DNA from: Polytrichum commune
Lineage: Eukaryota > Streptophyta > Polytrichopsida > Polytrichales > Polytrichaceae
Direction of reading: 5' to 3'
DNA: 64,000 bases
Assembly: GCA_950295325.1 (NCBI GenBank)
Contig: OX485807.1
Coordinates: 45,556,796 to 45,620,795 of the forward strand
The position numbers were made by a program, and so were the translations under genes. Within the stretch, counting starts at the first letter, position 1; every line of letters begins with the position of its first letter. Shown here piece by piece: positions 25,827 through 55,079 of this stretch. Under the pieces are notes generated by a model, which did no database searches, was not told the origin of the DNA, and saw only the letters and a list, made by a program, of their open reading frames with translations.

Positions 25827-26083
25827 ATCACTATATTCGTTAATTTGGGACTTTTTCGGCATTTTGAGACAGTTACAAATATAAGAACATGGATAAAATC
25901 ACACAGATATTGGAGAATATTGTAAGATGCAAATACTTTGAAGCGGGTGTTCATATCAAGAACCCAATTAAGAACTCATATCAAGATGGTTTAGGTAGGA
26001 CAACCCAAACATGAGACCATGTTGTTGTGGTCCATATATTAATTTAAGACAAGAGAAAGTCTCAAATTAACGAATATAGTGAT
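25827..26083. mobile_element. 257-bp deletion derivative (MITE) of the giant transposon
   Basis: It starts ATCACTATATTCGTTAAT and ends with the inverted complement. The left about 170 bp (ACTTTTTCGGCATTTTGAGAC, then GAAGCGGGTGTT and GGTTTAGGTAGG) match the left end of the giant element. The last about 50 bp (TCCATATATTAATTT, AAGAGAAAGTCTC) match its right end. Flanks are TTTA and TTTT. The paralog near 6290 is uninterrupted, showing an empty site. Confidence 0.85.
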
Positions 26084-26577
26084 TTTTATGAAAAACTTCT
26101 TATGATCTTACCAATCTTTTCAAATAATAATTGCATTAGCTTTTATGATACAAGTATATTGTAGACTTAGATTCTTATGAGTTACATATGGGGAATGAAA
26201 AACTCTTCGACGATTTTATGATGAATGCTAGGGTTGTGCATTTTACATATGATAGGGATTTATTGTTATCCAAAACTATATTCGTGTACTTATGTTAATG
26301 ACTATATATTAATGTGATTTTTTTATTGTTAACATCTTGTCACTTATATGTTTGTCATTGAAATTGTACGTGTATTGCTTGATTTTACAAAAACAAAAAC
26401 CAAAAACTTGTATATAGGGGTTTTGTTTAGAGTATATTACAAACGCACATGATTCTTGGATTTTTATGAAAGGTACATCCCCCCGGGGGGGCTCTTGACC
26501 CATGATATACAAATTATGTGATTGGTTGAGAAGCCGGAGATAGTCCAAGTTCACTTTATACTAGACCTTGAAGGCCC

Positions 26578-36226: not shown

Positions 36227-36587
36227 TCATCAAGCCATGCGGGATGTCATCAAAATTTTGATTCAACAAGGATAATAAATTGTAACCTAGTCTAACTTGT
36301 ACAATTAAAGGTAGATGGTGATCAACGCTCACATTTTAAGTAGGATGAAGATGCCTAACTAAAATGCCACACTATTTAGGAAACCAATTTGGAAGCAAAA
36401 TTTTGCATCCAGTACACTTTACACGATGTAACACTATATTCGTTAAATTGAGACTTTTTGGGCATTTTGAGACATTCACATAAATAAGAACAAGGATAAA
36501 TGGAACACATATTGGAGAAAGTTGTAAGATGCGAACACTTTGAAGCAGGTGTTTAGACCAAGAACCCCATAAATAACTCATATTTGT

Positions 36588-36830
36588 GATGGTTTAGGGT
36601 GGGCAATCCAAATCTTAGACCACATTTAAGGGGAAACCTTAAAACATTCATATTATTGCACACAAAATATTAGAGCTTGTATGAATATGGTTTAGGTAGG
36701 GCAATCCAAACCATAGATCTTATTGAAGGGTTAATATGTTAACCAATATAATATTGCATACAAAATATTCCAAACTCATATTTGTGATGGTTTAGGTAGG
36801 GCAATCCAAACCTTAGACCATATGGAAGGG
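36588..36830. repeat. Subterminal direct repeats of the giant transposon (about 100-bp spacing)
   Basis: Three copies of GGTTTAGGtaGGGCAATCCAAA, each followed by a variant of CTTAGACCATATGGAAGGGG, start near 36588, 36688 and 36788. The copy at 63298 carries two. The deletion derivative keeps one diverged copy. CACTA elements often carry subterminal transposase-binding repeats; that role here is inference. Confidence 0.65.
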
Positions 36831-36977
36831 GAAATCATGTCTAACTTGTATTATTGCAAAAAAAAACATACAAAGTGTGGCATGTAAAATGCATATCATG
36901 CTAACACCACACATGCATTGGATAGTGCGACCCAAAATGTTCTTGCCTATGGCCCAAAACCCTACGCCTACTATGGC

Positions 36978-37889
36978 CTATCTAGCCTCGGATACTACCT
37001 CTTTTTCTTTTGCTTCATTTTCTTTTGCTTTTTTTTCTTTTGCCTCTTTTTCTTTTGCCTCTTTTTCTTTTGCTGCAGCTTCTTTTGCTCGCATTGCTTC
37101 AACATTCCTGAAAATCTCCGCCCCGCGACTATAGCCATTCTTGGGGTGAACGCCATCAATAACACATTTTGTATTCCGTCGGCCGCCCGAATTATACGAC
37201 GAAGAATTCGAATACGATGAAGTGGACTGTCTTGCATTTCTGGTCATGGAGTAGAAACGCTCCAACTCGACGGACGGATCATCCCGCATAGGTTTACGGG
37301 CGGGAGCAACCTGCAACGCGTGAATGCAAGAACACACGTGTTAGTTAAGGGAGGAAGACCCAAACGTGTCACACGTTCATTTTTTAAGTGCGGGATGATT
37401 GTAATGCGTGGTTAACCATGTTTTTTTGGAGGGGGGGGGGGGGGGGTTCACCTTGTCACCGGGGGCGTTCCCGTCGGAGTTGGCGAGGAGGGGCAAGGCG
37501 TCCCGCAAAGGGATAGGAAGGGTGCCACTCTTCGTGGGCCGAGCGTCCATCCGCAGCCGCCGTTGAGGTGTAATACTGCCGCCGGGCCGAGAGGGGGACG
37601 TCCGGACGCATTTGCGATTTATGCCCTTGAGCGGCGACGGGGACGGAGATGGCCGGAAGATTTGCTTGGGTGGGGGGCTATCGACGACGCCGGCGTCGAT
37701 AGGCTCCTTGGGGTAGTCGATGGTGGACGCGGCATCGTAGACGGTCTCGTAGAAGAAGCTCCCCAAGTTTGATTCGTTGACGATCTCAATCGAGGGCTCC
37801 AAATGCTGGCGCAAAAAAGGAAACAAAACAAAACCCAAGGGGAGGGGGGGAGGGGGGAGCATGTGAAAATCGATATACAATTGAGGCAT
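36978..37889 (-). CDS. Transposon gene with Pro/Ser-rich N-part and C-terminal Lys/Glu coiled coil
   Basis: A first coding segment runs from about 37889 or, more likely, from an acceptor (TTTTTTGCGCCAG) near 37811 down to 37452. A 141-bp intron (37311-37451; donor GTGAAC, acceptor GCGTTGCAG) joins it in phase 0 (DK to VAPARKP) to the last exon, 37310-36978. The N-part is acidic then Pro/Ser-rich (PSPSPSPLKG). The last exon has SMTRNARQSTSSYS, a short motif GVHPKNGYSRG, and then a tail of repeated AKEKE units predicted to form a charged coiled coil. I do not recognise a family. The same last exon recurs at 63746-64000 with the frame preserved, which argues that it is truly coding. It is the gene nearest the left end of the element. 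The repeat number of AKEKE units differs between the copies. Confidence 0.6.
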
Positions 37890-37924
37890 AATATATCACA
37901 CACAATGGCACACCATGTAGTATC

Positions 37925-38689
37925 TCAAATGAGTTTATTATATTTCGCGTGAGCGTACAACTCTCTGTACATATAGTCCTTCGGATCCATGTATCTTTCG
38001 CCTATCGGATTACAACTAAGGAACCGGGGCACGGGTAGTCCGCTCCCCACGAGCGTTTGAATGTACTTAAGTAGGTCTAACAAAAAGCGGTCTCGGACCT
38101 TCTCGACCGTCCACGTGGGGCAAACTATGAAGTTCGAGGTCGGGTTCAAAATGTTTTTGGAAGCGCTGTCGTCCACCATCAACGTGTTGTCACGGGTGGG
38201 GCGAACGTCGTAGGGACAGCCGACCATGGTCGGACGCTGGTCCCATACGACTGGCTTCAAGACCTTAAGAAATTGGTTTACGGCGGGGTTGTTGGGCTTT
38301 TTCACAACCCTGCCCTCGGGGGTGTATAACGTTCTACAAGAGTCCTGTCCTAGGACCAAGCACGGGGGTTGGAGTCCCTTGAAGATGAACTCCACGACGG
38401 CCTGGGTGTTCTCGGACTTCATGGAGCTCCACACGATCACCCACCATTTGGATAGGGCGACCTGCAGGAAGCGCCGAAGCCACGGGCGGAGGTACACTAG
38501 CTTGCTTTTGATGTACGCGGGGGGACCATCGTAGTTGGCGTCCTCGGGCTTGCAGAAAGGCACCGTGGGGACCCTCGGACAATGCACGCACTGGACAAGG
38601 ACCCCGTTGAGGTCTAGCACCAGGAACCGGGTCTTGGGAGGCGAAGGTGGCGAGGGCAAAATCGGGGGGACCACCGCGTTGTCCTCCAC
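37925..38689 (-). CDS. FCP1/SCP-like HAD-family phosphatase domain protein
   Basis: The open frame from the GTG at 38689 gives 254 residues. It stays open upstream to about 38770 (Ser-rich, no ATG), so the true start lies in an unresolved upstream exon. FLVLDLNGVLVQ at residues 22-33 is HAD motif I, with D26 as the nucleophile position. VIVWSSMKSENTQAV matches motif II, KVLKPVVWDQRP the central region, and LMVDDSASKNILNP motif IV with a DD pair, in the order of the FCP1/SCP (NIF) family. The second motif I acid is Asn (DLN rather than DLD). Plant FCP1-like HAD proteins with DLNG are known to me, so this may be a lineage trait, but it leaves catalysis uncertain. It ends in YAHAKYNKLI and TGA. 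It lies between the ParB/methyltransferase gene and the Lys/Glu-rich gene on the same strand inside the transposon, and may be a captured host gene. Confidence 0.75.
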   Translation of the reverse strand: MEDNAVVPPILPSPPSPPKTRFLVLDLNGVLVQCVHCPRVPTVPFCKPEDANYDGPPAYIKSKLVYLRPWLRRFLQVALSKWWVIVWSSMKSENTQAVVEFIFKGLQPPCLVLGQDSCRTLYTPEGRVVKKPNNPAVNQFLKVLKPVVWDQRPTMVGCPYDVRPTRDNTLMVDDSASKNILNPTSNFIVCPTWTVEKVRDRFLLDLLKYIQTLVGSGLPVPRFLSCNPIGERYMDPKDYMYRELYAHAKYNKLI

Positions 38690-38917
38690 ACTCCTCGGAG
38701 AGGATCGGTGGGGAGCTGCGACGCTATGCTCCGAACCCTGCGGCGACGAGCGAGAGAAGGCGGACGAGGACTATGTTATGCTATGTCCATCTCAAGCAGA
38801 ACGGAAATTTTGTGCAAACACAAGAAGAATTGGACCATTGGTGGCAACAAAAACATACAAGGGGAACAACATACATTGGGACACGGATGCAAACATATGG
38901 GCGCCAAAAATAATAAT

Positions 38918-38923
38918 TTTATT
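38918..38923 (-). terminator. Candidate AATAAA polyadenylation signal for the ParB/methyltransferase gene
   Basis: On the minus strand AATAAA lies about 300 nt past the last in-frame stop of the ParB/methyltransferase frame and before the HAD phosphatase gene. Position fits a 3' end, but plant poly(A) signals are loose. Confidence 0.25.
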
Positions 38924-39186
38924 TTTACAAATCTCTATGTACAATTTGATTGGGGGGGGGGGGGACCGCGGTGAACGAGGGCATTCACACTATCCTAATT
39001 CTACATCTACAAAATTGGTTGCGCGCCGCCAAGGTCGAGCATAGTCGAGTGCAGGTGAGACGAAGGGGATCGCGGGGGGGCACGTTGGGGGGAGGGGGAG
39101 CAAGTGTAGAGCATGGGGGGCAGGGGGTGTGCATTTCCTCCTAGCAAGGGGGACACGACCACGCCAACAAGACAATGACCCAGGAA

Positions 39187-39600
39187 GTTTGGGTCGGTCG
39201 ACCCAAACTGGGGAGGGCTCAGTGTATTATCTCGCCCTGGTCATGTCTCGACGATGTGGAAGCCTCCACCGTCCCCGCTGTCCCGCCTCTCTCGCCACCG
39301 CCTTCTCCGACGACGTCAGGAACCTTCTCCTGCAAACGATCGGCATCAGGCCCTTGTCCTAAACCAATCTCCGCATTTGCATCATGCATGGGTTCATCGA
39401 TTTGGTTAGGAGTAGAGGTATCACCAGGCCCTTGCAAGCCTTCAACATCTAGCATGGCCGTGTCTAGTTGACACCCATGTTGGTCAAGGGAGGACTGCGC
39501 TGCAACGGGGTTTGGGTCGGGCGACCCAAACTGTCCTGCATCTGGAGAGGGCCCTTCGGACACTCCAGTGGATGGTGGGTTTGGGTCGGTCGACCCAAAC
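39187..39600. repeat. Three 22-bp palindromes in the 3' part of the ParB/methyltransferase frame
   Basis: Copies at 39187-39208, 39510-39531 and 39579-39600. Half-site GTTTGGGTCG faces its inverted complement across two variable bases. The last two are read as FGSPDPNP and FGSTDPNP in the extension frame. Confidence 0.9.
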
Positions 39601-39758
39601 ATCCTGGGGTCGTCCGATTGGTGAGGGGGCGCCATGACTATCGGGGGCCGAAGTGGTGGAGGGCCCAAAGGGGAGGAGGCTCCAGAGACGCGCCAGATGT
39701 TGGGGTCATCCACTTGCTGGACCGGCGCGTACGGAACTTGGTGGGGCCGCATCAAGTG
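39219..39758 (-). CDS. In-frame open extension after TAG of the ParB/methyltransferase gene (Pro-rich)
   Basis: After the TAG at 39761-39759 the same frame stays open for 179 codons to a stop at 39219. The product is rich in Pro, Gly, Asp and Gln. It includes two copies of the 22-bp palindrome read as FGSTDPNP and FGSPDPNP, and it ends in an acidic and Gly-rich tail (VVGEGGGERGG). It may be a read-through or formerly coding C-terminus, or GC-rich 3' UTR that is open by chance. The palindrome contributes no stops in any frame, which makes chance openness easier. Confidence 0.35.
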   Translation of the reverse strand, partial: HLMRPHQVPYAPVQQVDDPNIWRVSGASSPLGPPPLRPPIVMAPPHQSDDPRMFGSTDPNPPSTGVSEGPSPDAGQFGSPDPNPVAAQSSLDQHGCQLDTAMLDVEGLQGPGDTSTPNQIDEPMHDANAEIGLGQGPDADRLQEKVPDVVGEGGGERGGTAGTVEASTSSRHDQGEIIH

Positions 39759-42700
39759 CTAGAAGCTGAAAGACGATTGCGGCACAGGCTGCTGAGGGAT
39801 GCTCTGCGGAGGGAAGCCGGGGGGCAAGTGCGGGAAGGAGCTGGAGGGAGCCACCACCAAACCTTGCGCCCACATTCCTTGTATCACTTGTGATATCAAT
39901 TCGGCGTGGGACGGAGGTTGGGCCATCGCCCTCTGTCGTTCCTGCTCCAACAGGAGAGCCCTTAGCTCTGCTACCTCGTTCCGCATTGAGGGTTCTTCCG
40001 CGGCAGCCTTCTGCAGGCGGACTCGCTGCTCCTCGTCCCTCCTCATCTTCTCGTTCGCCTCCTCCACAGTCAGGACCTCGGGCTTCACCCTAACCATGCC
40101 AGCGAACGCTGTCGGGGACGGGGGATCTGATCTTAGCCGTTTGGCGAGCTCAATGTCATCGTCGTCCTCGCTGCTTATGGCAATGGTCTCCTCCACGGAG
40201 TAGTCGCCATACAGCTTCTTCCCCTTCATCTTCCTCCTCTCCCTGAACGTGGCAGTCGCGTCCCTGGAGTACATGTCCCGTGCATCGTCCACCGTTAGGA
40301 CGGGCACGAGCTTACTCTGCGGGGTTGCCGCCCGCATCGCCTTCTTCCGTTGAGGGGCTTCGGATTCTTGCGTGAAGCCCGTTGCCCCTTCCTCCACGTC
40401 GCCTTCCTTCTCCGCCTCCTCGTGCTCCTCTTCTTCCTCCTCCTCCTCGACATCGCCACCTTCTGTGCGGGACGGATTGCCCGGATGCAACCCGACAAGA
40501 GGTTCGGGTTCTTGGGTTGTGGCCCTCATGGCCATTTCTTCCGGGTTGATCCGCCTCACCCTATCAAGAGGGTTTTCGCCCCCCTGAACAACCTCGTCGA
40601 CGTAGCTACCCGGGATCCAATCGAGGATGTCCATCTTCTTCGCCAACGATCTCTGCGTCCTGTAAAATGGCAGATCGCCATCCTCTATGTAGGAGTATAT
40701 ACTCAGCCCCGACATCTACACAATCCAAGTTATATAGACATTAGAATTAGGCGAGGGACATAAACAAGACCAAGTACAATGTGTAGTTTGGGTCGATCGA
40801 CCCAAACCAACAAAGAGCCTAGTTTGGGTCGATCGACCAAACCAACAAAGAGACTAGTTTGGGTCGATCGACCCAAACCAACAAAGAGCCTAGTTTGGGT
40901 CGATCGACCCAAACCAACACAGAGCCTAGTTTGGGTCGATCGACCCAAACTGCGCACGAGTTATAGAAAGTCGCTTACCATGGCAGCATAGATAGGTTTA
41001 GAGCCTCCGAAGACGTTGAAGATGCAATCCCCTCTCCTCGTCAGCGTCCTCATCATTCTCACGTAAAATTCCATCCGCAGCTCATCTAAAGGATAGTTCG
41101 CGTATTTAGCCTCGTCGTAGAGGCACTTGTTGACACCCAACCCTTCTGGAACTTGGAAGAGTTTGTCCATCCGGGATATAGGGTGGTTCGGCACCTTCAG
41201 CAACTCCGCTTTGTACACGAAGTACAAACACAAGACGTTGACGAACTTGGTCTTCTTGTCCCTCAACGTCGTGTAAGCTCCCTCCGCCGGTGCGGCGATG
41301 TAGTGAGACTTGGAGACTGCATACTCCGGCTGCAGTTTCCGGACAAGCTCGTACACCTGCTCCGCCCTCCTATCCTCGACTATCCAAAGCCAGATATCTA
41401 CCTCCCTGAACTTAGGGCTTGCATAATCGACGAACTTAGATAGGAAGGGGTCATAGAAGAGGGTGCTCATCGTGCCCTCAAATGAGCTTCCAGGAATATT
41501 CCTGAAATCAATCATCCCAAAAGGAAAGCGGTCCCTTGCTTTCGTCCTTATCGCCATTCTGGCGTCTTGACCTGGCCAGCCCTGAATTTTCAACGGGTCG
41601 GCGGTGACAAGGTTGAAGTACGCTTCCCCTTCAAACTGGACAATCTTCTTCTCCTTGATGAAGTTCGAGAACGCACGCGTTGTGTGATCCGGAAGCGCCC
41701 GGTTCTTCCCACCCTTCACCATCTTGGCCCGCAAGAAGTCGTCCCCCGCTTCCCTTATTAGAGCCGCCATGGAGGCACTGGTGAACTTATATTCAGCTTT
41801 GAATGCTCTCCAGTTAGCCTCATGGACCTCGCCGTCCACGACAATATTCCTCTCTGGCACTAGTTTATGCAGCTCCTGCACGATAGTCGTCTTCTTTTTC
41901 CTGTTCTCCGTCCATTCCTTCATGGTGTAGCATGAAGGAACGAAGGATTTGGGCTTTTGGAAGACAATCTTCGGGTGCACCCAACACCTCTTCGCCGTGG
42001 GTGCCACGTGCAGGATGTGAGATGCCGCCTTCTCCACCTCCGTCTCTGACAGCCCTTGAAGAGTTCTAAAGAACTCTCTCACGAGAGGCTTCATCTGCTT
42101 GAAGCGCGAGGTTTGGCTGAAGAAAATGCCAGTGTCGGGGTCGATCAAATCCCCCGTCTCGTGCTTTTCAAACACGGTTTTCCACTTCCTCCAAACTGAG
42201 TCAGATGCTGTAATCAAGTAAATCTCCCCCTTGAGGTCGCTGTATTTCTTTTGCTTGTGGCTCGAATTATCAATGGAGGAGAATTTGTTGATCATTTGGT
42301 ATTTGAAATCCTGCACGTCCACAAAACAGAACATTTGAATGCGTGTTAGATATGTACATGTGATTTCCAACCCATATCATGACCAACATCTACAACAAGA
42401 GTTTGGGTCGATCGACCCAAACTAAATAAACTAGCTGCATCAGGAGTTTGGGTCGGTCGACCCAAACTAAATAAACAAGGCTGCATCAGGAGTTTGGGTC
42501 GGTCGACCTAAACAATACTCACCTCCCATTTGGGATTCTTGTCCTTCGCATTCTCCCTCTCCTTGGGAGGCCTACCATAGAACTCCCACACCTCCCGCGA
42601 GGCCATGATATTCCTTATCCAGGAAGCTTGGTAGGCCCTCTTCTTATTTCCCATATTGAAGTACCGGGAGATGTCGCTGAGCTTGGTCTCGTCGTCAGAC

Positions 42701-43350
42701 CACACCACCAGTGCCTTCCAAACCTTCAGCTTTTCCTTCTGATTGTTCGGATCATCCCACTCATTCATGAGTTGGATTTTCTTGGATGCCTCCACGCTGT
42801 GTTGGCCGTCTATGAGCCAAAAATCGCCCTTTTGAATTGTGGGCCACATTTCAGGTGTAGGCATTTTCTTGAGACCCTGTGGCATCACTACTATCGTTTG
42901 CCTGTCGTCTTTAAACTGCTCGCAAACGATCTGCGCGATTATCCAGTCAACGTAGGCGTCCTCCTTTGCCCGGACACACTTCTCCGGTGGCGCTAGATGG
43001 CACTGGCTGATGTTCACGTCGAACTTAAAATCCCTGCCCATGAAAAAACAGTGGGAGCATTTCGTCGTGAAATTGTTCACGATTTTCTGCAGCTCCCCTG
43101 CATCCACCTCTTCGCCGGGCTTCGGCATGCGCAACTCCGGTGAGACTGGCTCGTCAGTCATCACAGATGACTCTCTCCCCCTCTTGGATGGAGTTGTTTG
43201 ACGGCTCCCAGAAGGTGTAGGCGTCTCGCTATCCGCAGGTGTTTGGGAGGGAGTGGTCCTCCGCGAGTCAGCCGGTACTGGTCGCGGCTTCCTCACCGAT
43301 TGAGGTCTTGACGACCCTGCTCCTTCCTCTGTGGTTGCTTTCCGCCTCAC
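39759..43350 (-). CDS. ParB-like domain fused to a degenerate N4/N6-type DNA methyltransferase (spliced)
   Basis: Exons on the minus strand are 43350-42523, 42310-40979 and 40715-39759. The introns are 42311-42522 (GTGAGT donor, GTGCAG acceptor) and 40716-40978 (GTAAGC donor, TTGTGTAG acceptor), both phase 0. A basic Ser/Thr/Pro-rich leader of about 70 residues precedes a ParB/sulfiredoxin-type domain: YVDWIIAQIV, QTIVVMPQG and LIDGQHSVEASK (DGQHS at residues 181-185 counted from 43350; the usual motif is DGxHR). The second half ends in RRGDCIFNVFGGSKPIYAAM followed by MSGLSIYSYIEDGDLPFYR. This matches the C-terminal AdoMet-binding motif I of beta-class N4/N6 DNA methyltransferases (GD-VLDPFxGSGTT-AA--GR-YIGIE). 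The catalytic DPPY motif is not obvious (MIDFRNIP lies at about the right place), so it may be a binding-only derivative. The C-terminal about 200 residues are acidic, with KR-rich and Gln/Pro-rich tracts. ParB-methyltransferase fusions are known from phages and bacterial mobile DNA. Codon 43350 is GTG, so the true start is further upstream. Confidence 0.7.
40786..40950. repeat. Five tandem palindromes inside an intron (36-bp period)
   Basis: Copies start at 40786, 40822, 40857, 40893 and 40929, separated by CCAACAAAGAGCCTA-type linkers. All have the fully symmetric AT centre (GGGTCGATCGACCC). One lacks a single C. All lie within the intron 40716-40978. Confidence 0.92.
42401..42513. repeat. 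Three palindromes inside an intron (about 45-bp period)
   Basis: Copies at 42401-42422, 42446-42467 and 42492-42513, with TAAATAAAC and GCTGCATCAGGA linkers. All lie in the 212-bp intron 42311-42522. The last copy touches the splice donor region. Confidence 0.92.
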
Positions 43351-43356
43351 GGGTTG

Positions 43357-43848
43357 CTAAGACTTGGTTTTGCTCTGCAGGGCTTTGTTGAGCACGCTGA
43401 TTGCATGCTTTAGTTTCGTGAATCTGCTCGACACCTTTGTGTTCGATGTACTGTTATCGATGAATATGGACTCCGGTTTGATGACGTCTGGTTCTACACA
43501 TGTTTCTTTTGCATAGATAGCGTCAAAGGGTTCGGAGAACTGGTGCATAAACATATGCGCGTTCTGGACAGCGTTGTTCTCGAGGATGACATCCACGTAG
43601 TCTCCAAGAGACTGAACCGATGCCACCTCCCACCCCGTAAGAGTAGCCCATGTGTGCTTCTCCACGGTCCCAACCTTCACAACAAAAATCATTTTGTATT
43701 GCGAACCCTTAACCACTTGTATAGACCACGCGAGGACAAGCCCGTCCTTAGGGGAATAGGTGTCATCCTGCGGGGTTTCGTGCTCCTGCCACAACATGTC
43801 CGGCGCAGGCATGAACCACCTTTCGCCGGGTCTTTTCTTTGGAGCCAT
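43357..43848 (-). CDS. N-terminal exon in the same frame as the ParB-like gene (163 codons, ends in TAG)
   Basis: The ATG at 43848 (MAPKKRPGERWF) directly follows a strong acceptor (TTTTCTTACAG at 43849 and above), so an upstream non-coding exon is likely. The 163-residue product has a mixed beta-rich pattern (LVLAWSIQVVKG, KMIFVVKVG) and no family I recognise. It stops at TAG (43359-43357), but the next codons (CAA CCC GTG AGG) stay in the same frame and run straight into the ParB-like reading frame. It is therefore either the first part of one long protein interrupted by a nonsense codon or leaky stop, or a separate small gene. Continuity of frame and strand favours the single-protein view. 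Confidence 0.55.
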   Translation of the reverse strand: MAPKKRPGERWFMPAPDMLWQEHETPQDDTYSPKDGLVLAWSIQVVKGSQYKMIFVVKVGTVEKHTWATLTGWEVASVQSLGDYVDVILENNAVQNAHMFMHQFSEPFDAIYAKETCVEPDVIKPESIFIDNSTSNTKVSSRFTKLKHAISVLNKALQSKTKS

Positions 43849-43874
43849 CTGTAAGAAAATAATGTGCAATGTTA

Positions 43875-44259
43875 GTTTCGGTCGTTCGACCCAAACATCT
43901 ACGACATGAATAGGTTTAGGTGGATTGTATATTTATATATTTCAGCATCATTTGTATTGATAATAAGAATGTTTTGATTATTGGGTGGATTTGCATTTTA
44001 TATTGTTTGTGACATGCAGGATTACTTGATACTTTTCCTTGATACATTCCTTGATTATTATTTTTTAGTGGATGTGAATTTTATATTGATGCAAAAATCA
44101 TGGATTTCTTTATGAGTTTATAATTAGAAGACGTTGTTTGGGTCGTTCGGCCCAAACATGATGCTTTGTTTTGTGTTTGGGTCGGTCGACCCAAACAAGA
44201 GGCTGTGTTTGGGTCGACCGACCCAAACCTGTGGCCGTGTTTGGGTCGTCTCCCCAAAC
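43875..44259. repeat. Palindromes upstream of the ParB-like gene
   Basis: Copies at 43875-43896 (one arm mismatched), 44136-44157, 44175-44196, 44207-44228 and 44239-44259 (degenerate). They lie just upstream of the acceptor at 43849, hence probably in the first intron or leader of the minus-strand gene. Confidence 0.85.
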
Positions 44260-44502
44260 TTTCCTATTTTAATGTAATTTTTAAAAGTTGGCACGTAGCA
44301 TATACAATGCTTATGCGTTGTGTATGCTACAATACCTTCAATTGACAAACACTTATTGCATATAATAAAAGAAAATACCTTTGTTGTATGTAGCAGTTGT
44401 TGTAAACTGTTGCTTTAGAACAGGTGTTCTTCTTCCAATAACACAGAAACAGTTGAATGTAACCTCTCACACAAATCCACAATCTCTCATACAACTCCTA
44501 GA

Positions 44503-44930
44503 TCTCTTTTGAATCTCTCAAACAACAATTCAATACTTCAAACAACCTCTGAATCTCTAAGAACAAGTGAATCTCTCAAAACAATAACTGACTCTCTCAA
44601 ATGACTTAGATATCTCTCAAACAACAATTGAGTGTTTCAAACAACCTCTGAATCCCTAAGAACAAGTGAATCTCTCAAAACAATGACTGACTCTCTCAAA
44701 TGACTTTTGTATCTCTCAAACAACAATTGAGTGTTTCAAACAACCTCTGAATCCCTAAGAACAAGTGAATCTCTCAAAACAATGACTGACTCTCTCAAAT
44801 GACTTTTGTATCTCTCAAACAACAATTGAGTGTTTCAAACAACCTCTGAATCCCTAAGAACAAGTGAATCTCTCAAAACAATGACTGACTCTCTCAAATG
44901 ACTTTTGTATCTCTCAAACACCTCCTGATT
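44503..44930. repeat. 99-bp tandem repeat, about four copies
   Basis: The unit contains CTAAGAACAAGTGAATCTC at 44557, 44656, 44755 and 44854 and phrases such as CTCTCAAACAACAATTGAG. The last three copies are almost identical and the first is diverged. It lies between the two divergent transcription units of the transposon. Confidence 0.9.
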
Positions 44931-45299
44931 ATCTTATAGAACTCCTAAATCTCACAAACTCTCCAACTACAATACAGCCTCCAAAACCCGCAAGCTTAGA
45001 ATGTTGGAAAACCCTTCAACAATCTTCTACTTACTTCACTCTACAACAATCACTCTACTAACTCTCACGCACTCTAAAACTCTCTCCTTAGGTTTCTGTT
45101 CTATTGCAAACACTTCCTAACTTCTACAGCAAGAGAAGGGAGGGAAGGAGAAGAATCAGTAGGCGCCAAAGCAACAAGAAGGGAGGGAAGAGAAGAAAAT
45201 CGCCACCCTGAATCGCCACGGCGCTTCGCGAAAGCGGCGCTTCGCGAAAGCGGCGCTTCAGGAGAGGCGGCGCTTCCACAAGAGGCGCGGAGCGAATGC

Positions 45300-45470
45300 T
45301 TGGCGCGGAGAGAGAGAGAAAGAGCGAAAAGTTGTGACGGCTGGGGTTTTGTATGCCTCGGGAATTGGCCCCCAACCGCACGAATAGGGTGCCAACGGGA
45401 TTAGGGCACCAACGGAATTAGGATTACGGGGAACCCTAAATCCTAAAGCCAAACTGTAAACCCTTAGCGG
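45300..45470 (-). promoter_or_regulatory. Candidate promoter and CT-rich leader of the minus-strand genes
   Basis: Read on the minus strand there are AACCCTAAATCC-like boxes, then GCATACAAAACC, then a CT-rich run (45308-45325) and a CpG-rich segment with tandem TTCGCGAAGCGCCGC units (45226-45262). This resembles a plant core promoter followed by a 5' leader. No coding start is evident before 43848. Position between divergent genes supports the reading; no direct proof. Confidence 0.3.
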
Positions 45471-45506
45471 GCATTAGTATTTTCAAGACACTTTGGAGTA
45501 CCCTAA

Positions 45507-46037
45507 TGGGGCATTCCCACTTGACTTTAGTTAAGACCCTCACTATTTTATAAAGACCGGGTAAAGCTCCCTCGGTTATAGCGGAGGCATCCAACTATCC
45601 CAATGCACCTACAAGAACTTGCTCCGGAGATTTTCAAGTAGGTTTTAGTTAAGTAGCTTTCACACATGTTCATGGTTTTATCTACCAAGCAATGAATGTT
45701 GGGTAGTTTTTGTCCCATCCCCAAATGCCTTACTACTCACCTATCTTACCATCGGTTTTTGTTAATGAAGCTCCTCGTGCCCTCATAGCTAAGACTAAAA
45801 AGCAACCAATCACAAGGGTGGGAGGCGACACTTTTAAAATTCCTATATTCTTGCCTAATGTTTAGGTACCGATGGGAGCGTCGGTGGTTGAGGCTTAAAA
45901 CCTCCACTTTTAAGCCATGCCACATCATTTGCCACCTAGGCTCGGCACTAAAAAGAGCCATATGTGTGAAACCTAGATAACTAAAACCGCATTTAGACTA
46001 ATACTACTTCTAACTAATGTCAAGTGGGAATGCCCCA
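45507..46037. mobile_element. 531-bp Harbinger-like MITE nested in the giant transposon
   Basis: Ends TGGGGCATTCCCACTTGAC and its inverted complement (TTAGTTA follows with a small offset). TAA flanks both sides (45504-45506 and 46038-46040). A 3-bp TAA TSD with G-rich ends is typical of PIF/Harbinger MITEs. Confidence 0.7.
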
Positions 46038-46484
46038 TAAGGTGCACATCAAATGCGGTATTCTACAAAATGAAACCATTTATACAACTAATGCATTTTT
46101 ACAACGCAACGTTATCCTAAAACTAAGACTTAACCCCTACTCACATGACACCATAACCTAAATTTCCCAAACAAGTTGAAATCATTGGTTTCTCTTTTGT
46201 TTGAGCAAGTTAGAAAAATAATACAATTGCGTGACATTTAACGATGTAATCGTTGACATTTAGACTTTACCAATGATGCCAAGAACTCACACAATATGCA
46301 ATGAATAAAAAATATAACCCCCGTCCCCCAACATGAAATTCGGAAATTTAGGATATTTGAATGTGTTTGCTAAATGTATACCTTCCCCAAGAGCATTTTC
46401 TCAGGGTTTGGAATTGCATGATCCTTATGTCGAAATGCTAACATGCTCAAGTTTTTAGTAAATCCCTTACATACTCACTTGAAT

Positions 46485-47314
46485 GAATCACATAGTCGCC
46501 AATAAACCATGGATCGTGATATATGTACTTCGAATGTGATATAAAAGTAAATCGGAGAACCACAACATCAAATGAAGCCCTTTGACGCAATCATGTTGTT
46601 ATTGAATGTTCCCTCCACGTATATTACATAATGGCGCAAGATAAAGTTCATGTTGTTTGTATGTGGAGGTAGCAGTGAACAACTACGAATTTTTGTATTT
46701 AGGGTTTAGGGTTTAGGGTTTAGGAGTTAGGTTTATAACATATTAATCTATCCAATATTAACATATAACATTGACTTACTGGTGAGAATAGGTTTTTACT
46801 GGAAGGTAATAGAAAAGACGATCTTGATTATGTTTATTTGTTATTACGGACGTTTAAACGTGATATAGTGAATGGTCTTGTGTTTATTCAAATAACATGA
46901 AATGTTGTGGATGTTATTAGGGGTAAGGGGTTCAACTTTGGATGTTTTGCTCACTTTAAGGAATCACATAGTCGCCAATAAACCATGGTTCATGATGTAT
47001 TTAATATATGGAATGTGATGCAAAAGTAAATAAGAGAAGCACAACATCAAATGAAGCCATTCACGCAATCATGTTCTTATTCATTGTTCCCTCCACATGT
47101 ATTGGATAATGGAGAAAGATATAACAGATATTGTTTGCATAATATGAAGAAGAGTCTAATAGGAAGGTTATAGTAAATACAATCTTGATCATGTTAATAT
47201 GTTATTTGGGACGTTTAAACATGATATACTAATTGGTTTTGTATTTTGTCAATACGTATTTCATGTTGTGGATGTTATAAGGGTTTAGGGTCCAACTTTG
47301 GATGTTTTGGTCAC
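46485..47314. repeat. Diverged direct duplication inside the transposon
   Basis: 46485-46954 and 46963-47314 share GAATCACATAGTCGCCAATA, CACAACATCAAATGAAGCC, GACGTTTAAAC and CAACTTTGGATGTTTTG in order. No coding frame is conserved between them. Confidence 0.8.
46698..46724 (+). repeat. Interstitial plant telomere-type repeats
   Basis: Almost four TTTAGGG units. A second short tract is at 47472-47490. Both lie inside the giant transposon. Confidence 0.9.
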
Positions 47315-47900
47315 ACACATTAGTAAACTTGAAGTGAACTTGAGGATGGATTGAAATAACATTAAAAGATTGAACCAAAAAGCGACATTGCTAGTTAGTA
47401 TCCCCTTAACAACGTCCACATACGTTTATCATTGCCACACTTCCATGCGAGATAACAGAGCCGCAATGTTCTAGGGTTTAGGGTTTAGGGGAGACAAATA
47501 AATAATTTTATTCATCATGACAATGGCCTCAAGCCTTGGAAACTCTCTCATAATTGCAACCTCCAAATGGCCCCAACCCCACCTAAATAGGTTTGCACTT
47601 GAAAGCATTGAATGGAGTTGTGGTTGGGTATACATATTGGTTAAAATATACCGTTGTGACACTTGAAAAAATTAATGTGGCCGCCACCCTTCCTTCCAAT
47701 GTCGTATGTCATATACACACAAAACCAAAAAAAGATTAAATATCATAGACTAAGACATATGACGGCTGGGGTATGAGAGGGGCATTGAAAGATGCGCATT
47801 TTCTACAATAAACAGAAAACGGGGAATTTTGTCAGGAGGTTTGAAATAACAAGGCGGGAAAGGCATCCAATGAGGAAGTCGGGCAAGTGGAGGTGGATAG

Positions 47901-47907
47901 TATAAAG
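47901..47907 (+). promoter_or_regulatory. Candidate TATA box for the transposase-like gene
   Basis: TATAAAG lies upstream of the transposase start and is followed about 30 bp later by a pyrimidine-rich tract, the usual plant arrangement of TATA box, start site and CT-rich leader. If used, the leader would contain a 5' untranslated intron ending at the acceptor at 49472, and that intron would hold the 48.2-49.3 kb palindrome array. No donor is obvious. RNA data are needed. Confidence 0.45.
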
Positions 47908-48175
47908 GGGCGCACCCCCCAAAAGTTGGTTCTTTTTTGCTCTTCTCCCACTCCTGAATTCGTAGAGAGAACTCTTAGTCGGAGCTGTACTTCGAGGTTC
48001 GTTCACGCTGTTGTTCATGAGGACCTATTCACAGCATGCAAGTCCGCAGTGAACTTTGCAATGAGATGAAATTCCACACACCTCTCAATATCCGCTGCAT
48101 TATACGCCGCATTATACGCTGTATTATACGTCGGTCGACACTAGTGTTGGCGGGTTTCAGTCTGACCCTTGTGAG

Positions 48176-49276
48176 GTTTGGGTCGGTCGACCCAAACCCC
48201 TCCACTAGTGTGGGCGGGTTCTAGTCTGACCATTCTGAGGTTTGGGTCGATCGACCCAAACCCCTCCACTAGTGTGGGCGGGTTCTAGTCTCACCCTTGT
48301 GAAGTTTGGGTCGGTCGACCCAAACCCCTTCACTAGTGTTGGGGGGGGGGTCTAGCCTGACCCTTGTGAGGTTTGGGTCGATCGACCCAAACCCCTTCAC
48401 TAGTGTTGGGGGGGGGGTCTAGTCTGACCCTTGTGAGGTTTGGGTCGGTCGACCCAAACCCCTTCACTAGTGTTTGGGGGGGGGGGGGGTCTAGTCTGAC
48501 CCTTGTGAGGTTTGGGTCGGTCGACCCAAACCCCTTCACTAGTGTTGGGGGGGGGGGTCTAGTCTGACCCTTCTGAGATTTGGGTCGGTCGACCCAAACC
48601 CCTACCCCACTATGGGCGTTTATCGTAAAACCTTTCAGAAGGTTTGGGTCGGTCGACCCAAACTTTTTCGCACATCGTGAACGAATTGTTAATGGCCCTT
48701 ACCCAAGGTACTCAGAAGGTTTGGACGGACAAAGTAGGAACCTTATCCCATCATATGTAATGTTTGGGTCGAGCGACCCAAACCTCATCCCAGTGTGGGT
48801 GGATTTACACTGTGAAAGTTTGGGTCGACCGACCCAAACCCTTTCCCAGTGTGGGTGGACTTACCCTGTGAAAGTTTGGGTCGACCGACCCAAACCCCTT
48901 CCGAGTGTGGTGGGTTTACCCTGTGAAAGTTTGGGTCGGTCGACCCAAACCCCTTCCCAGTGTGGATGGATTTAGCCTGTGAAAGTTTGGGTCGACCGAC
49001 CCAAACCCCTATCCAGTGTGGGTGGATTAACCCCGTCAAAGATTGGGTCGGTCGACCCAACCCCTTCCCCAGTTTCGGAGGTTGTAGTTGACCATGACAA
49101 GGATTGGGTCGGTCGACCCAAAATTTTCCCCACAGCGTGATGGAATTCTAAATGGCCCTCAACCCATCATTGTACAAGGTTTGAGTCGGTCGACCGGAAC
49201 CCGACCCTATCCCACGGGCAAGGTGTGGATGGCCCTCAATCCATGGTGCCACAGGGTTTAGGTCGGCCGACCCAAA
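48176..49276. repeat. Minisatellite array of about 20 palindromes upstream of the transposase gene
   Basis: Copies start at 48176, 48240, 48304, 48371, 48438, 48510, 48578, 48642, 48762, 48818, 48874, 48929 and 48985, then decay (49040, 49100, 49178, 49255). The first block has a 64-72 bp period with TCTAGTCTGACCCTTGTGAG linkers and poly-G runs. The second has a 55-56 bp period with AGTGTGGGTGGATTTACC-type linkers. Centres are GT, AT, AC or AG. It lies between the candidate TATA box and the coding start of the transposase gene. Confidence 0.92.
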
Positions 49277-49477
49277 CTCCCACCCAAAATATTTTGTGGA
49301 ACATTTTGCGGACTGGCGCATAGTATTGGGAGCTCACATTGCATTTGTGTTGCAAATGTCTTGATCCTCAGTGTCCCCATTTATCGTGATGTTTTGCATT
49401 TTCCAATATTTGATTTTTTTGGACCCTTACGTTGTGTCCATGTTTGTTGAGGTTTCATGTGCATTTGTGTAGGCGCA

Positions 49478-52400
49478 ATGGAGGGAGTTGGTGGAAGAGG
49501 GGATTCCTTCTCTGAAGACATGGGCAGCACCCAATCTCTGTCTGGGGATGAGCTAGACATTGTCGGGGAGGATAGTTTTGATGACAGTGCAGATGAAGGT
49601 CATTTGGGGAGTCCTTCGCCATCTGACCCTTTTTGCCCCATTGTGGAATGTGCGGGGCTTTCACGAGCTTCATGGGTGAATTTGGATGTGGTACTTGTTA
49701 ATGACAGTGGAGTTGCTGTGGCGGAGGGTATTTGTCGTAACACACATCCACAAGATTGCATTGATGAACACTCCCTTGGCACCGAGGACGTTGGAGTTGT
49801 TATATTAGAATCACTTGTACATTCGGAAGTCAATCCAACTCATAGGTTCTCGTTGCGAAGGTGGCCGTTGAGGAATGTGACAATTGAGGGGGTTAGCTTG
49901 CGCGACCATGAGCGACGACACGTCCAAATCCAACAGGAGCTCCAAGCAAACATTCGGCCACGCAAAGGCCTTCGGAAGTACGAAACATTGACACGTCCTA
50001 CTCTGTCTGCAAATAAGTGTAAACGTCAAAGGTTGCTCTGTGAGGAGTCTATTAGAGAAGTTGCTACGAAGGATTGTTGTGTACATCGTTGTTGCCAATT
50101 GTTCCCAAGAGATAAATTGAAGGCCATCCGTGAAGAAATGTGGCTTGGAGATTTCCGTCTAAGATCCACCAAAAAACTTGATGTCCATAGGGCGATACAT
50201 GTGAACGGAGCGGGTCGCAAGGTCATCACCCTTGAGAGCATAGACGTGTGTTGTACGGTATGGTACACCATTCACGGTGTGTCGAAAGCGGAATTTTATA
50301 GACAAGCCGCGTATGCCAATGAAGGCCGCCGTGCCCGTCACCATGGGAACACGGGCTTAAAGAAACCAAGAGAAGCAACGAGACAAGCAACAGCCACTCT
50401 GGCAACCATCATTGTCCCCCTTGCCGATGCAATGCCGCACAAAACACGGACACTCGCAACCGGTGAAAAGGTTGTGGAGAAGGTTCTTCCTACAGGCACG
50501 AAATGGAAAGACATATTGTTGGACGTAAACGCAGTTGGCGAGAAGGCCGGGTTGGACCCTATTTCGTTGTCGAAACTGAGTGCTATAAAAAAATCTCACT
50601 TTAGCGAATACATCACAAAAAGACGAGGCGACAAATTTGCCCGTTGTTCCAAATGTGAGAAGTTGAAACGCCTTCGAGATGCACACACGATGGGGACAGA
50701 GTCCTATGCCGCACATCAAATGAACTATTTCAAGCATGTGAACATGCAAGAGGCACACCGTAATGATTACTACACAAATAGAGCTTTGTCCATCTCCAGG
50801 CCTTTGGAAGTCCTTACAATCATCCATGACAAAATGGACCATGCCAAAACAGCCTCACCATGTTTTGCAAATCGAATAAAAGCCACGGACGGCCTTTTTA
50901 AGCTTCCTGTTTCGGTTACAGGTGATTTTGATAACAATTGCATTGCATTACCTAAACACAAATTTGTGCGTTTAGGTTTGTACTTGGGGCCATACATGTA
51001 CACCATGTGAATTTTTTGGTGTTATAGTTGAATATTAAACCATTGGGTTGCCTTTGCAGGAATGATTGCACATGGGCATGGAGATGTCAAGTATGCTCAT
51101 TATGCTCTTGATTTGTATCCGGGGGATTCAAACCACACGATAGGGTCATTTGCAAAGCTTTTACGTGATTTGGAGAAACCGCCGTCCTATTCATCAAGAT
51201 TGCTATTTGAAAACTCGGGATCAACACCTCTATATGAAACGGTCTTGGATGGAAGAGATGTATGCGTGCACTCATTGCCGGAGCCACCAAGTGAAGATGT
51301 GATTGCCAAGAATTTGCCCCCAACTCTGCGTGTCCAATCGGACAATTGTGCGAAGGACAATAAAAGCAGATATGTATTTGCATATTGGTTGTTGTTGGTT
51401 GCGAAAGGCATTTTCAAGGAGGTTTTTGTGTCCTTTCTATTGGTAGGCCACACGCACGATGATATTGATGCGTCCTTTGGGCGGTGGAGCATGAAGTTGC
51501 GCGAGGAGGATTTTCCAACAATCCCATTGTTGATGAAGTCGTACATGGATTTGGAGAACATTCCCGTCATCCCACATATGATTGAGGAGGTTCCAGACTT
51601 CAAGGCATTTATAGAACCGTATATTCGAAGCGGAGCTCACCGATTGATCGGGCATACGAAGGCACAACAATTTCGGTTCTACGTGCGTGACGATGGTGTC
51701 CCCGCCATGCAATACAAGTTGTTGTGCACATCACAAGACTGGAGCCCGCCGGAGGGTCTCCTTGTATGGCGTGTTGATGGGGAAGGAAGGACGATGTTGC
51801 CTGACGGAGAGCCTAAGCCTTGCAAACCAATACCCATGAAGAATTTGGAGGACATTTGTAAAGGCATATCAGGCTTCATACAATATTGGGAGAGTTTGAG
51901 GGTAGCGGATGTTGGTGGATCGTGTTGGCTTCGTTACGGAAGTTGGATACAATATTGGACACGTGTTCGTGGCGCTTTGGCAAACCTTCATCAAGATACA
52001 CCCCTTACTTTAAGGCATGGGTTTTGGCCACAAACACGTGTCAATGTACAAGCTTCGGAGGCTAGTCTTTTGGGAAATGGAGAGGTTCGAGAGGAGTTTG
52101 ATGTGGACGACCATTACGTGGGGCCTGCTAGTAGTCGTCCGCCACCATCTTTCCGCATTGCAGTGGATTGTCATGAAGGTTATATGCTCATTTTGCGTCC
52201 TGGAGATGAGACATATGCAAAGCCAGTGTGGGTGGCAAGAGCTTTGTCCAAACCAAATTTTGTAACTTCCAGCCCTCATTTTCGACAAATACAAGTAGAG
52301 TACTACCGACCGACATCACGGAATGAAGATGTTGTTCGGCATTATACAGGCTGGGATACAAACCCTAACTTTCGGTGGAAGGTGGATTCTGAGCATGGTC

Positions 52401-52546
52401 CATCTTGGATAGATACAGATTCCATATTCATAGCATGGAAACCACGGAAAAATCATAGTGGATCGGTGTCCATCCCTCAAAAGTACATAACTTTTGCAAA
52501 AGACAACCTTGCTCGGATCGCAGAAGAAGCAACCCACGTTAAATGA
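49478..52546 (+). CDS. Two-exon RNase H-fold transposase-like protein (DUF7869-type), 976 aa
   Basis: Exon 1 is 49478-50921 and exon 2 is 51060-52546. The 138-bp intron begins GTGATT and ends TTTGCAG, and splicing restores a continuous frame (VSVTG then MIAHGHG). The start is the first ATG after a likely acceptor (TTTGTGTAG) at 49472. The N-terminal part is acidic and then basic, followed by Cys-rich stretches (VCCTVWYTIHGVS; CSKCEKLK). The putative acidic catalytic triad is D in IHDKMDHAK, D in VQSDNCAKDNK and the acidic residues of GHTHDDIDASFGRWS. From general knowledge, these motifs mark the eukaryotic family I know as DUF7869, a predicted RNase H-like domain linked to DNA transposons. 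The last about 150 residues (PVWVARALS, EYYRPTS) look like a small SH3/BAH-like barrel. I infer that this is the transposase of the surrounding element. All catalytic motifs are intact and there are no frameshifts, so it may be active. Confidence 0.85.
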
Positions 52547-55079
52547 GAAGTTGGTAGGATTGTGTTAGCATGATTATAGTGTAATATGTAATTCGACGAA
52601 TATAAATTACACATATGTGTGCTCCTCAAACTTGGGCCAAGTTTGGGTAGAACTTGCGAATGCTATATTGTTTGGGGTTGGATGAATATCCATTTACTAT
52701 ATTTCAATACAAATGTGAAGTTCATTTTTTTATTAAGTTTGGGACTAAATTGTCCATTGAAGAAAAATGCATTTATTGCATGCACTTTGTATGTTGCAAT
52801 GTCTATATTTTATTGACCATGCTAATAATATAAACCATTTTATATGTTTATTGGATGAAACTAGTTTAGAGTGCTCTACCCAAAGTGTTTTTGTTGATGA
52901 AGTTGGTGTTGAGTGCTCTACCATATGTGCTTATGTCCACACATAATAGATTTGGGATATTAGAACATATAATATATTTGAGATTGTTCGCAATATAGTT
53001 TCGGAACACGGAATGTTGTTTGATCCATATATTAATTTGAGACTAGAGAAAGTCTCAATTTAACGAATATAGTGTTATGTGAACATGCCCAACCCACTGA
53101 TCATGAAACATGTGCAGTGATATGTAGTGAATCTTCTTTGCTTTGTGCATTAGTCAAATACACTAAACGCTTGGGGAAAGCCTCACTTACGGGAAGAACT
53201 TGCTACACAAGTTTGGTGTCCCTCCTCCACCATGACAGGCACAACTTCAGGGCGTCCACCGACTTGTTCAACCACTTCCACTTCCTCTTCCATGATTGCT
53301 TGGAACACCTCCATTTGTTCAATATCCCATGCATAGCCAAGTTCCATGACTTCACAAAGCTCAAGAAGTTCTCCATGGTTGGTCTTGATCGAGTAATAAA
53401 CTGAACAAGCATGACAATATCATGAGGAGATAACTTTGGGTGAAACATATGGAAGATGAGTACGTTTCAATTCATGCACTTTGCCCGGCGGAATCGAATC
53501 TATTTCCATGCCACATCCACTTTATCACGGCTTTCGAGCAACCATTGTGTGACAAGTGTGAAATGTGGCTTTGCCACTTCAGAAAATTTATCTTGCACCG
53601 AAATTGATAAGGTTTTGGCTTACCAAATCAATATTCAAGGAATTGACAGCTTGCATGCCTTGAATACCCTCTCTAATTTACGAACGCAAGAAGTTATGAA
53701 GAATACAGAACAAACTCACACTCAGCATGCACACATGTGAGTGGAAGATTTAGGCACTGATAAATGTTACACTGGAATTTTGAGGTAAGAATACATGAAT
53801 TTTCAACCCAATCACCAAGCTCAATAAGTCTTTTCAACTGGCACATCCCTGCAATCATTTTACATCCCTCAAACACTGTACTAATTATCCCAATTAGTGA
53901 GGGTGGGCTAATTAATGTGTGTGGGATATTAGTGACGGTGGTACTAAACTTTTTAAGCTTTGAAATTATTGCCACCAGAAGATTTAGGTGGCATTGTTGG
54001 TAACGATATTATTCACAATATTCATATTATTCATACCGACGTGAGTTTCTTCTTGTAAAGGTAAGATGGTGGACGCATGTGTCAAATGCTAAATATAGAA
54101 ATAGAACTCAACCACAAGGTTGAGTAATGTCATGCTCACAAGCATGTGTAAATTGCATGCATTATTTTTTGGTCACTCTACAAACACCATAGGGCACAAA
54201 GTATTTTTTTTCTGAATTGTATGGTAAATGAGCTTGTATTCATGTATTTAGTATCACTCAATAAAGAAATTGGGCCTCACTAATTTTCAGAGTTGACAAA
54301 TTAGTGCATGTTTCGAGAATTGGTGATAGCTAAACTAGTTGGGATAATCTCTGGAGTAGGAAACATGGTTCTTGAATGCACATCCATTTTGAAAGGGGGG
54401 GGGTCATTAGAACATAATATGAATACGTTACAATGTTGAGCAGAAGCTGGGGGATGATAGAGATTATAATTAGTGAAGCCGTAGTCCGTCTGAACATTTT
54501 ATTATATTAAAGACTATTCCAACTTCTAAGCCAACAAAACAGAGGATCCTGAATCTTGAGTGTCCCCTCTGTTCTTGGACACTGTTTGTAAGTTCATTAC
54601 CTGAAGAGAAGGCAAACGACGACAAGAAATCGCTCGCTCTCTTGATTGATGATTCTACAACCAAATGGCGTGCGACCTACTTTTGACCACGCAGCTGGGA
54701 CAACACCACACAACAAAAAAAGAAATGAACAATGATGATAGGTCGAGAGGAGTGCACCTAGATCCGGTATTCTGCAAATCCTGCTACAGACAAGGCCGAC
54801 GAATTTGTTCGGTGGTAGCTGCTGGACTCAAACTAACCAGTTAACTTACAACCACCTAATCCAGAGCAAATGCTCAATGCCCACAAGAATGTTAGAATTG
54901 GTACAGTGAATAAGAATATAGTTTTACGATGCGCGAGGCACCGGAATGGGAAGGAAATATGTGGGAGCTCAGGTGAACCCCTGCTAGCACCGCTCCTTCT
55001 AAACCATGAACCCATTCGCCACCTTTCAAGAATCCTTGTAAGTTACATTTACTGACCGATTCATCATGGGTATACTCTG

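Follow-up and report, generated by a model that had tools for sequence, protein, structure and literature searches.

A moss DNA transposon, probably mobile in recent time, encodes a ParB/methyltransferase-like protein and carries family-specific palindrome arrays that may serve as its address

The window analysed here is a stretch of 64,000 nucleotides from the moss Polytrichum commune (contig OX485807.1, forward strand, positions 45,556,796 to 45,620,795), and all coordinates below refer to positions within it unless a locus is named. The interval 36430-53076 is one DNA transposon of 16.6 kb that encloses a minus-strand accessory gene coding for ParB-like and methyltransferase-like domains, a plus-strand transposase gene with a DUF7869 domain and, in non-coding DNA, numerous copies of a 22-bp palindrome that we regard as the putative target of the accessory protein. 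The ends of the element, with its terminal inverted repeats (TIRs) and target-site duplications (TSDs), and the parts of the accessory gene are as follows.

36426..36429, no strand: left TSD, 4 bp, ATGT
36430..36457, plus strand: left TIR, 28 bp, perfect, AACACTATATTCGTTAAATTGAGACTTT
39759-39761, minus strand: stop codon of the last exon read
39762..40715, minus strand: last exon read, YIEDGD... past motif I, followed by a low-complexity tail
40979..42310, minus strand: exon encoding the methyltransferase-like region, in which DFRNIPG takes the motif IV place (41489-41509) and FNVFGGSK is motif I
42523..43356, minus strand: coding part with the ParB-like domain, DGQHS at 42796-42810
43357..43359, minus strand: premature in-frame TAG of the window copy
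43360..43851, minus strand: N-terminal coding part MAPKKRPGERW..., in frame with the ParB part
53049..53076, minus strand: right TIR, 28 bp
53077..53080, no strand: right TSD, 4 bp, ATGT

Flanks of 4 bp were equal in 11 of 11 elements (the window's and ten others, the latter being facing pairs about 16-17 kb apart, chosen among the exact TIR matches listed), and an equal 5-bp flank was present in none of them. The 26-bp core of the TIR has 802 + 805 matches in the genome (at most two mismatches), and its reversed control has none. At least 138 relatives were found in the genome at 90-100% identity (138 candidates having been scored out of 1017), which puts the gene far beyond chance. Over their best aligned 1.8-3.2 kb, eight fetched copies match the window element at 98.7-99.3% identity, from which we conclude that the family has probably been mobile in recent time. 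An earlier model-made interpretation of these letters (hereafter, the sequence-only reading) had proposed a transposon setting, which the element bears out, and a domesticated DNA-binding protein, which we reject in view of the many near-identical copies: the gene belongs to a multi-copy, apparently recently mobile transposon and evolves under purifying selection.

The accessory gene is read in coding parts separated by two predicted introns, both of phase 0: the first at 42311-42522 (GAG/GTGAGT...GTGCAG/GATTTC) and the second at 40716-40978 (ATG/GTAAGC...TGTGTAG/ATG). With both borders read, the two appear to be GT-AG introns, as had been suggested, and their positions are kept in related loci: breaks occur at both in L079 and L080 and at the first in L081, the stretch of which stops short of the second (the borders of these homologues were read out for L079 only). 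The proteins of these three loci are 31-32% identical to the window's and come from a metagenome-assembled genome titled Synechococcales; because of the introns, together with the transposon-type gene, the contigs are probably eukaryotic DNA placed in the wrong bin. The motif I segment GDCIFNVFGGSK is encoded at 40997-41032 (minus strand), and the second intron falls just past the FGGSK loop and before the following acidic motif, not exactly through motif I as first described. Similarly, the span originally given for the gene (39759-43350) is correct at its stop codon and falls short at its start, since in-frame coding sequence (43360-43851) lies upstream with the TAG in between. Intact copies extend N-terminally in the same frame, which in the window copy is interrupted by this TAG; in eleven rows with identical protein the open frame measures 474 amino acids in eight, 367 in one and 282 in two (window included).

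Between the window and a copy of about 90% identity (both of family 1, as we call the window's family), the proportion of synonymous differences (pS) is near saturation (0.77 in the ParB-like and 0.70 in the methyltransferase-like part), and the ratio of the nonsynonymous to the synonymous proportion (pN/pS) is 0.075 and 0.078, respectively. The corresponding ratios are 0.14 and 0.29 for a pair from family 7, and 0.11 and 0.14 for L079 against L080. These low values indicate that both parts of the protein are kept by purifying selection. In one and the same pair of elements, the window's (40979-43851 and 49478-50921) and L052/L078, pS amounted to 0.63-0.81 in the accessory gene and 0.35 in transposase exon 1, unequal values that hint at an exchange of the accessory gene between elements.

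ParB/methyltransferase-like fusion is our best reading of the encoded protein, because its two parts stand in the order found in phage and in published algal transposon proteins. Domain-wise profiles were compared with 11 of the 12 phage ParB-methyltransferase regions fetched (L070, with a short annotated protein, was left out), and the family-7 loci L053, L056, L058 and L059, near-duplicates of L054, stood outside the profiles. The values cited were obtained after several alignments had been tried and contain some selection, and the shuffle null, made from alignment columns, is lenient; earlier profiles from full-length shallow alignments gave expectation values (E) of 0.32 (family 1), 0.17 (family 5) and 0.013 (family 4), and an earlier ParB-only run 0.05-0.75. 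The methyltransferase-like part of families 1, 2 and 7 and L079/L080 matched the 11 phage proteins with a score of 31.1 (E 6e-4), while the column-shuffle control had a mean of 12.2 and a maximum of 19.5 (0 of 100 as high). The alignment pairs HNTEL...GDKVVSVYAGSK with phage HPTQKP...KTVLDLFGGSG, and motif I stands C-terminally, where the sequence-only reading had put it; it follows the motif IV place, which is the permuted order of beta-class enzymes. A family-4 exon matched PHROG DNA methyltransferases (5e-5) and, in the profile comparison, scored above 150 of 150 shuffles; the single Pfam match of the L080 exon was N6_N4_Mtase (0.033, below the cut-off), and the methyltransferase-like exon of the window alone had no Pfam or PHROG match.

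The catalytic DPPY/F/W motif is absent, again as previously noticed. Its place is occupied by DFRNIPG, DTRFLPG and DFRFIPG in families 1, 2 and 7, by DFRNTP in L079/L080, by DCR[NW] in families 3 and 5, and (at about that position) by LQFPDG in family 4; families 1, 2, 3, 5 and 7 retain the D that opens motif IV, and in motif I of families 1, 2 and 7 the GxG has given way to GG[SNL]K. From the replacement of DPPY by a conserved D-x-R motif we infer a protein that reads DNA rather than one that writes on it.

Set against phage ParB, the N-terminal part of families 1/2/7 stays in register from R to GQH..A (1 of 100 and 2-3 of 100 shuffles as high). The ParB-like exon of the window had no Pfam match at E up to 1, no NCBIfam ParB model was recovered for eight proteins at E up to 10, and the best PHROG ParB match was 0.095. 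Hence, of the ParB domain once placed at DGQHS, a ParB-like N-terminal part with the fitting motif order stands, while its profile match is marginal and both Pfam and NCBIfam are silent. At the R of DGQHR, families 1, 2, 3, 5 and 7 have S, T, V or I, and families 4 and 6 have R. Families 1/2/7 and 3/5 share the domain (E 8.8e-10, 0 of 100 shuffles), and the kinship of families 4/6 is doubtful (2 of 100 shuffles as high against 1/2/7, and 13 of 100 against 3/5). AlphaFold2 models of single window exons, each made from a single sequence, reached predicted local distance difference test (pLDDT) scores of 37.8 (ParB part) and 34 (second model), too low for a fold to be read; searches of PDB sequences returned weak, unrelated matches only, and none of the 150 pattern matches in viral contigs was related.

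In the window, 31 copies of the palindrome GTTTGGGTCG-NN-CGACCCAAAC were counted (20-bp core, at most two mismatches), 24 of them exact; chance palindromes were rejected, as 0.01 copies are expected. The copies are distributed as follows (no strand assigned).

39188..39599: 3 palindromes GTTTGGGTCG-NN-CGACCCAAAC, downstream of the ParB/methyltransferase-like gene
40787..40949: 5 palindromes, second intron
42402..42512: 3 palindromes, first intron
43876..44227: 4 palindromes, upstream region of the ParB/methyltransferase-like gene
48177..49276: 16 palindromes in tandem arrays, upstream of the transposase gene

Together they span 39188-49276; none of the 31 lies in an exon, and the one closest to a TIR is 2758 bp away from it. 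The palindrome is constant across the arrays and the spacers are unrelated; conservation drops sharply at the palindrome flanks (the sites having been chosen by palindrome similarity, only the drop is informative). Genome-wide, the 20-bp core has 9,731 exact sites and the reversed control 0. By hand count, 81 of the first 100 sites listed are situated in three stretches with family-1 TIRs (one of which has a single end among the TIR matches listed) and 17 in or beside family-4 elements, the other 2 being unassigned.

Two further DUF7869 families repeat this layout of transposase, palindrome array and divergent ParB-like gene (L039, L029 and L030 in one; L031 with L032 and L033 with L037 in the other). 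Family 4 shares it too, with transposase-like frames that show a weak SWIM match (0.076, below the cut-off) and that are presumably Mutator-like (MULE-like). The palindromes themselves differ between families: CCCACGGGTG-NN in family 2 (819 genome sites of the 20-bp core, 41 of 50 among the matches listed being within 25 kb of a ParB-like match by hand count), GGGTGAGGCA-NN in family 3 (155 sites), CCCTGTGCGT-NN in family 4 (508 sites), and TTTCACTCG-AT and TTCCACTCG-AT in family 7 (340 sites together; the arms match in 48 of 50 among the matches listed and are mixed in 2), with reversed controls of 0 in every one of these searches. Family 6 has GGTGTCTCGG-GA and GGGTTCGG-GA upstream or in the introns of its ParB-like genes, and the family-7 palindromes are likewise found in introns of the ParB-like gene; the stretches read of families 6 and 7 contained no transposase. 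L079-L081 carry TTCAGCTCGANTCGAGCTGAA or TATCCTCGANTCGAGGATA, five sites each (at most three mismatches; none in 20 shuffles of each), upstream of the gene in L079 and L081 and in the introns of all three.

Closeness of the ParB-like domain tracks closeness of the palindrome in the 22 pairs shown (of 66 possible among twelve proteins). At 91% and 88% protein identity, 0 of 10 arm positions are changed, at 78% one of 9 and at 76% three of 9; the other 18 pairs (45% identity or less, five of them with 18 or fewer aligned columns) differ at 4-8 of 9-10 positions. Since protein and palindrome change together between families, each family would address itself, which suggests that each may find its own copies through its own protein.

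Palindromes of other families were also seen. Five family-4 loci (L034, L035, L043, L044 and L047) bear exact family-1 palindrome arrays, mostly with a 32-bp period, beside their own palindrome, and three more (L045, L046 and L048) have no repeated family-1 palindrome. L034 additionally holds, at its positions 456-1428, seven GGTGTCTCGG palindromes, mostly about 139 bp apart, the same palindrome being present in L049/L050.

The remaining genes of the element are listed below.

37925..38770, minus strand: FCP1/NIF-like phosphatase frame (Pfam PF03031, 1.6e-13)
49478..50921, plus strand: transposase exon 1 (splice sites predicted from the uninterrupted family-2 homologue)
51060..52546, plus strand: transposase exon 2 with DUF7869 (Pfam PF25273, 1.2e-40)

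DUF7869 is the sole Pfam match of the window transposase. The FCP1/NIF-like frame lies with the ParB/methyltransferase-like gene on the minus strand, opposite the plus-strand transposase, and reads DLNG at the position of the DxDx that FCP1/NIF phosphatases carry; such a frame accompanies the ParB/methyltransferase-like gene in families 1 and 7 (L075 3526-3999, PF03031 2.4e-5). All six frames of at least 200 amino acids in the window are inside the transposon, and within the 64-kb window no tRNA and no Rfam match above the gathering score was found. Further ends of the same TIR type lie beyond the element at 26056-26084 (3 mismatches) and 63297-63325 (1 mismatch). A TTTAGGG repeat, which we take to be of the plant type, is present at 46698; bacterial contamination was rejected on the grounds of the introns, this repeat and seven large contigs. 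The CACTA within the TIR had suggested an En/Spm element with a 3-bp TSD, a candidate that was rejected as tests for 3-bp and 2-bp duplications failed in 10 of 10 elements; with the TIR start set two bases earlier, the 4-bp TSD appeared in 11 of 11, and DUF7869 stands in place of Transposase_21. Sola1 elements have 4-bp TSDs, and the window element agrees with them in this trait, the only other pointer to Sola1 being the name of an Ectocarpus relative.

We reason, by analogy and with a confidence somewhat short of even, that the likeliest role of the protein is that of a self-targeting anti-silencing factor with a pseudo-methyltransferase. As a dimer, it would bind the 22-bp palindromes that lie in the introns and upstream region of its own gene and ahead of the transposase gene. 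Bound there, it may counter host silencing and hold the promoters of the element open, one copy at a time and in trans, in the way that VANC acts on VANDAL transposons. Several observations weigh against this proposal. The tie between palindrome and protein consists in co-occurrence and co-divergence only, and the Pfam scans of the proteins revealed no VANC domain (DUF1985, DUF287). The ParB assignment of families 1/2/7, drawn from motif order and profile score, is statistically marginal; for the ParB-like parts of families 3/5 and 4/6 there was no match to phage ParB (86 and 33 of 100 shuffles as high), and 50 of 150 shuffles score as high as the methyltransferase-like part of family 5. Among the matches listed, only 8 of 50 family-3 palindromes are within 25 kb of a family-3/5 protein match (counted by hand, low-complexity tail matches left out), and the stretches read of L040, L042, L053, L054, L056, L058 and L059 contain no repeated perfect palindrome. 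Lastly, the ParB-like protein of family 4 belongs to another group, yet five of its loci carry family-1 palindromes; these, with their other spacers, would fit either a shared binder or the use of family 1's protein.

The alternatives differ in what they make of the same features. If the protein were an autoregulator only, the palindromes would be operators that set the transcription of the divergent gene pair without any effect on host silencing. Their position upstream of both genes and in the regulator gene's introns agrees with this, and so many copies could titrate the protein; nevertheless, the 16 sites ahead of a single gene and the 8 intronic ones are more than operators should require, and the unrelated array spacers imply that arrays were formed repeatedly, so that we hold this alternative to be unlikely, albeit the foremost of its kind. 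Somewhat less probable again is that the transposase, a host factor or the NIF-like protein binds the palindromes and that the ParB/methyltransferase-like gene is an unrelated passenger. The family-1 palindromes in family-4 elements, and the family-3 palindromes that mostly (among the matches listed) have no detected ParB-like gene nearby, speak for it, but from family to family the palindromes vary along with the ParB-like protein, and in families 1 and 7 and in L079-L081 they occur within the introns of the gene that encodes it.

An active enzyme writing N4-methylcytosine or N6-methyladenine on its own transposon has been suggested for the Ectocarpus relative (PMC12477816), and both the recognisable motif I region and the motif IV D kept in five families would accord with it. 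The substitutions at motif IV (DFRN, DFRF or DTRF for DPPY, DCR[NW] in families 3 and 5, LQFPDG in family 4), along with the altered motif I loop of families 1, 2 and 7, run counter to catalysis and render such self-marking quite improbable in our estimation. We give the least credence to a transposition accessory factor of the En/Spm TNPA type, in which repeats are bound to join the ends, or to a parS-like clustering or segregation system. Short-site arrays, a ParB-like protein and the CACTA of the TIR recall such systems; TNPA sites are, however, subterminal, and no site is less than 2.7 kb from either end of the window element, the 4-bp TSD and DUF7869 replace a 3-bp TSD and Transposase_21, and no ParA is among the Pfam matches of the element's seven frames of at least 180 amino acids.

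Beyond the self-targeting anti-silencing role proposed for this element, one could envisage a general, fast-retargeting self-address system of eukaryotic transposons, in which a ParB-like protein with a pseudo-methyltransferase reads a family-specific palindrome of 20-22 bp and is passed among elements with unrelated transposases, family 4 adding another family's palindrome to profit from its protein. We deem this broader scheme possible but doubtful.

The fusion as such is already published in transposons and is therefore not new: ParB-methyltransferase genes occur in transposons of brown, green and red algae (PMC12477816, which cites Iyer 2011 and Petroll 2025), and the arrangement is thus not otherwise confined to phages and bacteria, contrary to the sequence-only reading. 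In its available passages, that paper describes Sola1-1_Ec32 of Ectocarpus, suggests self-modification by methylation and proposes a role with no named target; the same passages mention no palindromes and give no motif sequences. Both the algal and the moss elements are giant DNA transposons in which the strand opposite to that of the transposase encodes a ParB-like and N4/N6 methyltransferase-like fusion, whereas the moss gene shows conserved changes of motif IV and the motif I loop, is associated with family-specific palindrome arrays and travels with DUF7869 and other (weakly SWIM-like) transposases. As each family seems to print the putative target of its protein many times in its own non-coding DNA, a candidate binding site becomes readable from sequence; the literature on ParB and transposons (covered by titles, with palindromes little queried and most subscription papers outside coverage) yielded no report tying palindromes to such proteins. 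With the catalytic motif lost in a conserved way, the published idea of self-modification would become one of self-reading.

The phage and prophage ParB-methyltransferases (e.g., PSYG_00039 of Psychrobacter phage pOW20-A, L063) share with the moss proteins an N-terminal ParB-like part, the permuted order and, in several, the FGGS loop; they differ by DPPY in 11 of 11, a G[S/T]G loop in 10 of 11 and a single frame in each, and the similarity is remote. En/Spm TNPA is likewise an element-encoded DNA-binding protein with many short sites in its element, while the sites in the window are internal, palindromic and far from the ends, a placement unlike that of end-binding transposition factors.

VANC offers a close parallel in site placement: fast-changing tandem arrays of VANC21 motifs occupy introns of the genes VANC21 and VANB21 as well as the region upstream of VANA21 (PMC5735166), and VANC targets are likewise non-coding, internal, arrayed and family-specific (PMC5735166; PMC10398659). 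Dense family-specific arrays in introns and upstream of the transposase are also present in the moss element, and in both systems the protein is element-encoded and, like the motif, changes between families. The protein type differs (ParB/methyltransferase-like instead of DUF1985/DUF287), as does the site (a 22-bp palindrome here, a 9-bp directional motif for VANC), and anti-silencing, established for VANC, is here proposed by analogy. If the moss protein were VANC-like, element-encoded anti-silencing by a sequence reader would have had another origin, in an unrelated type of protein, and its families would constitute a set of natural, long-site, palindrome-specific binders.

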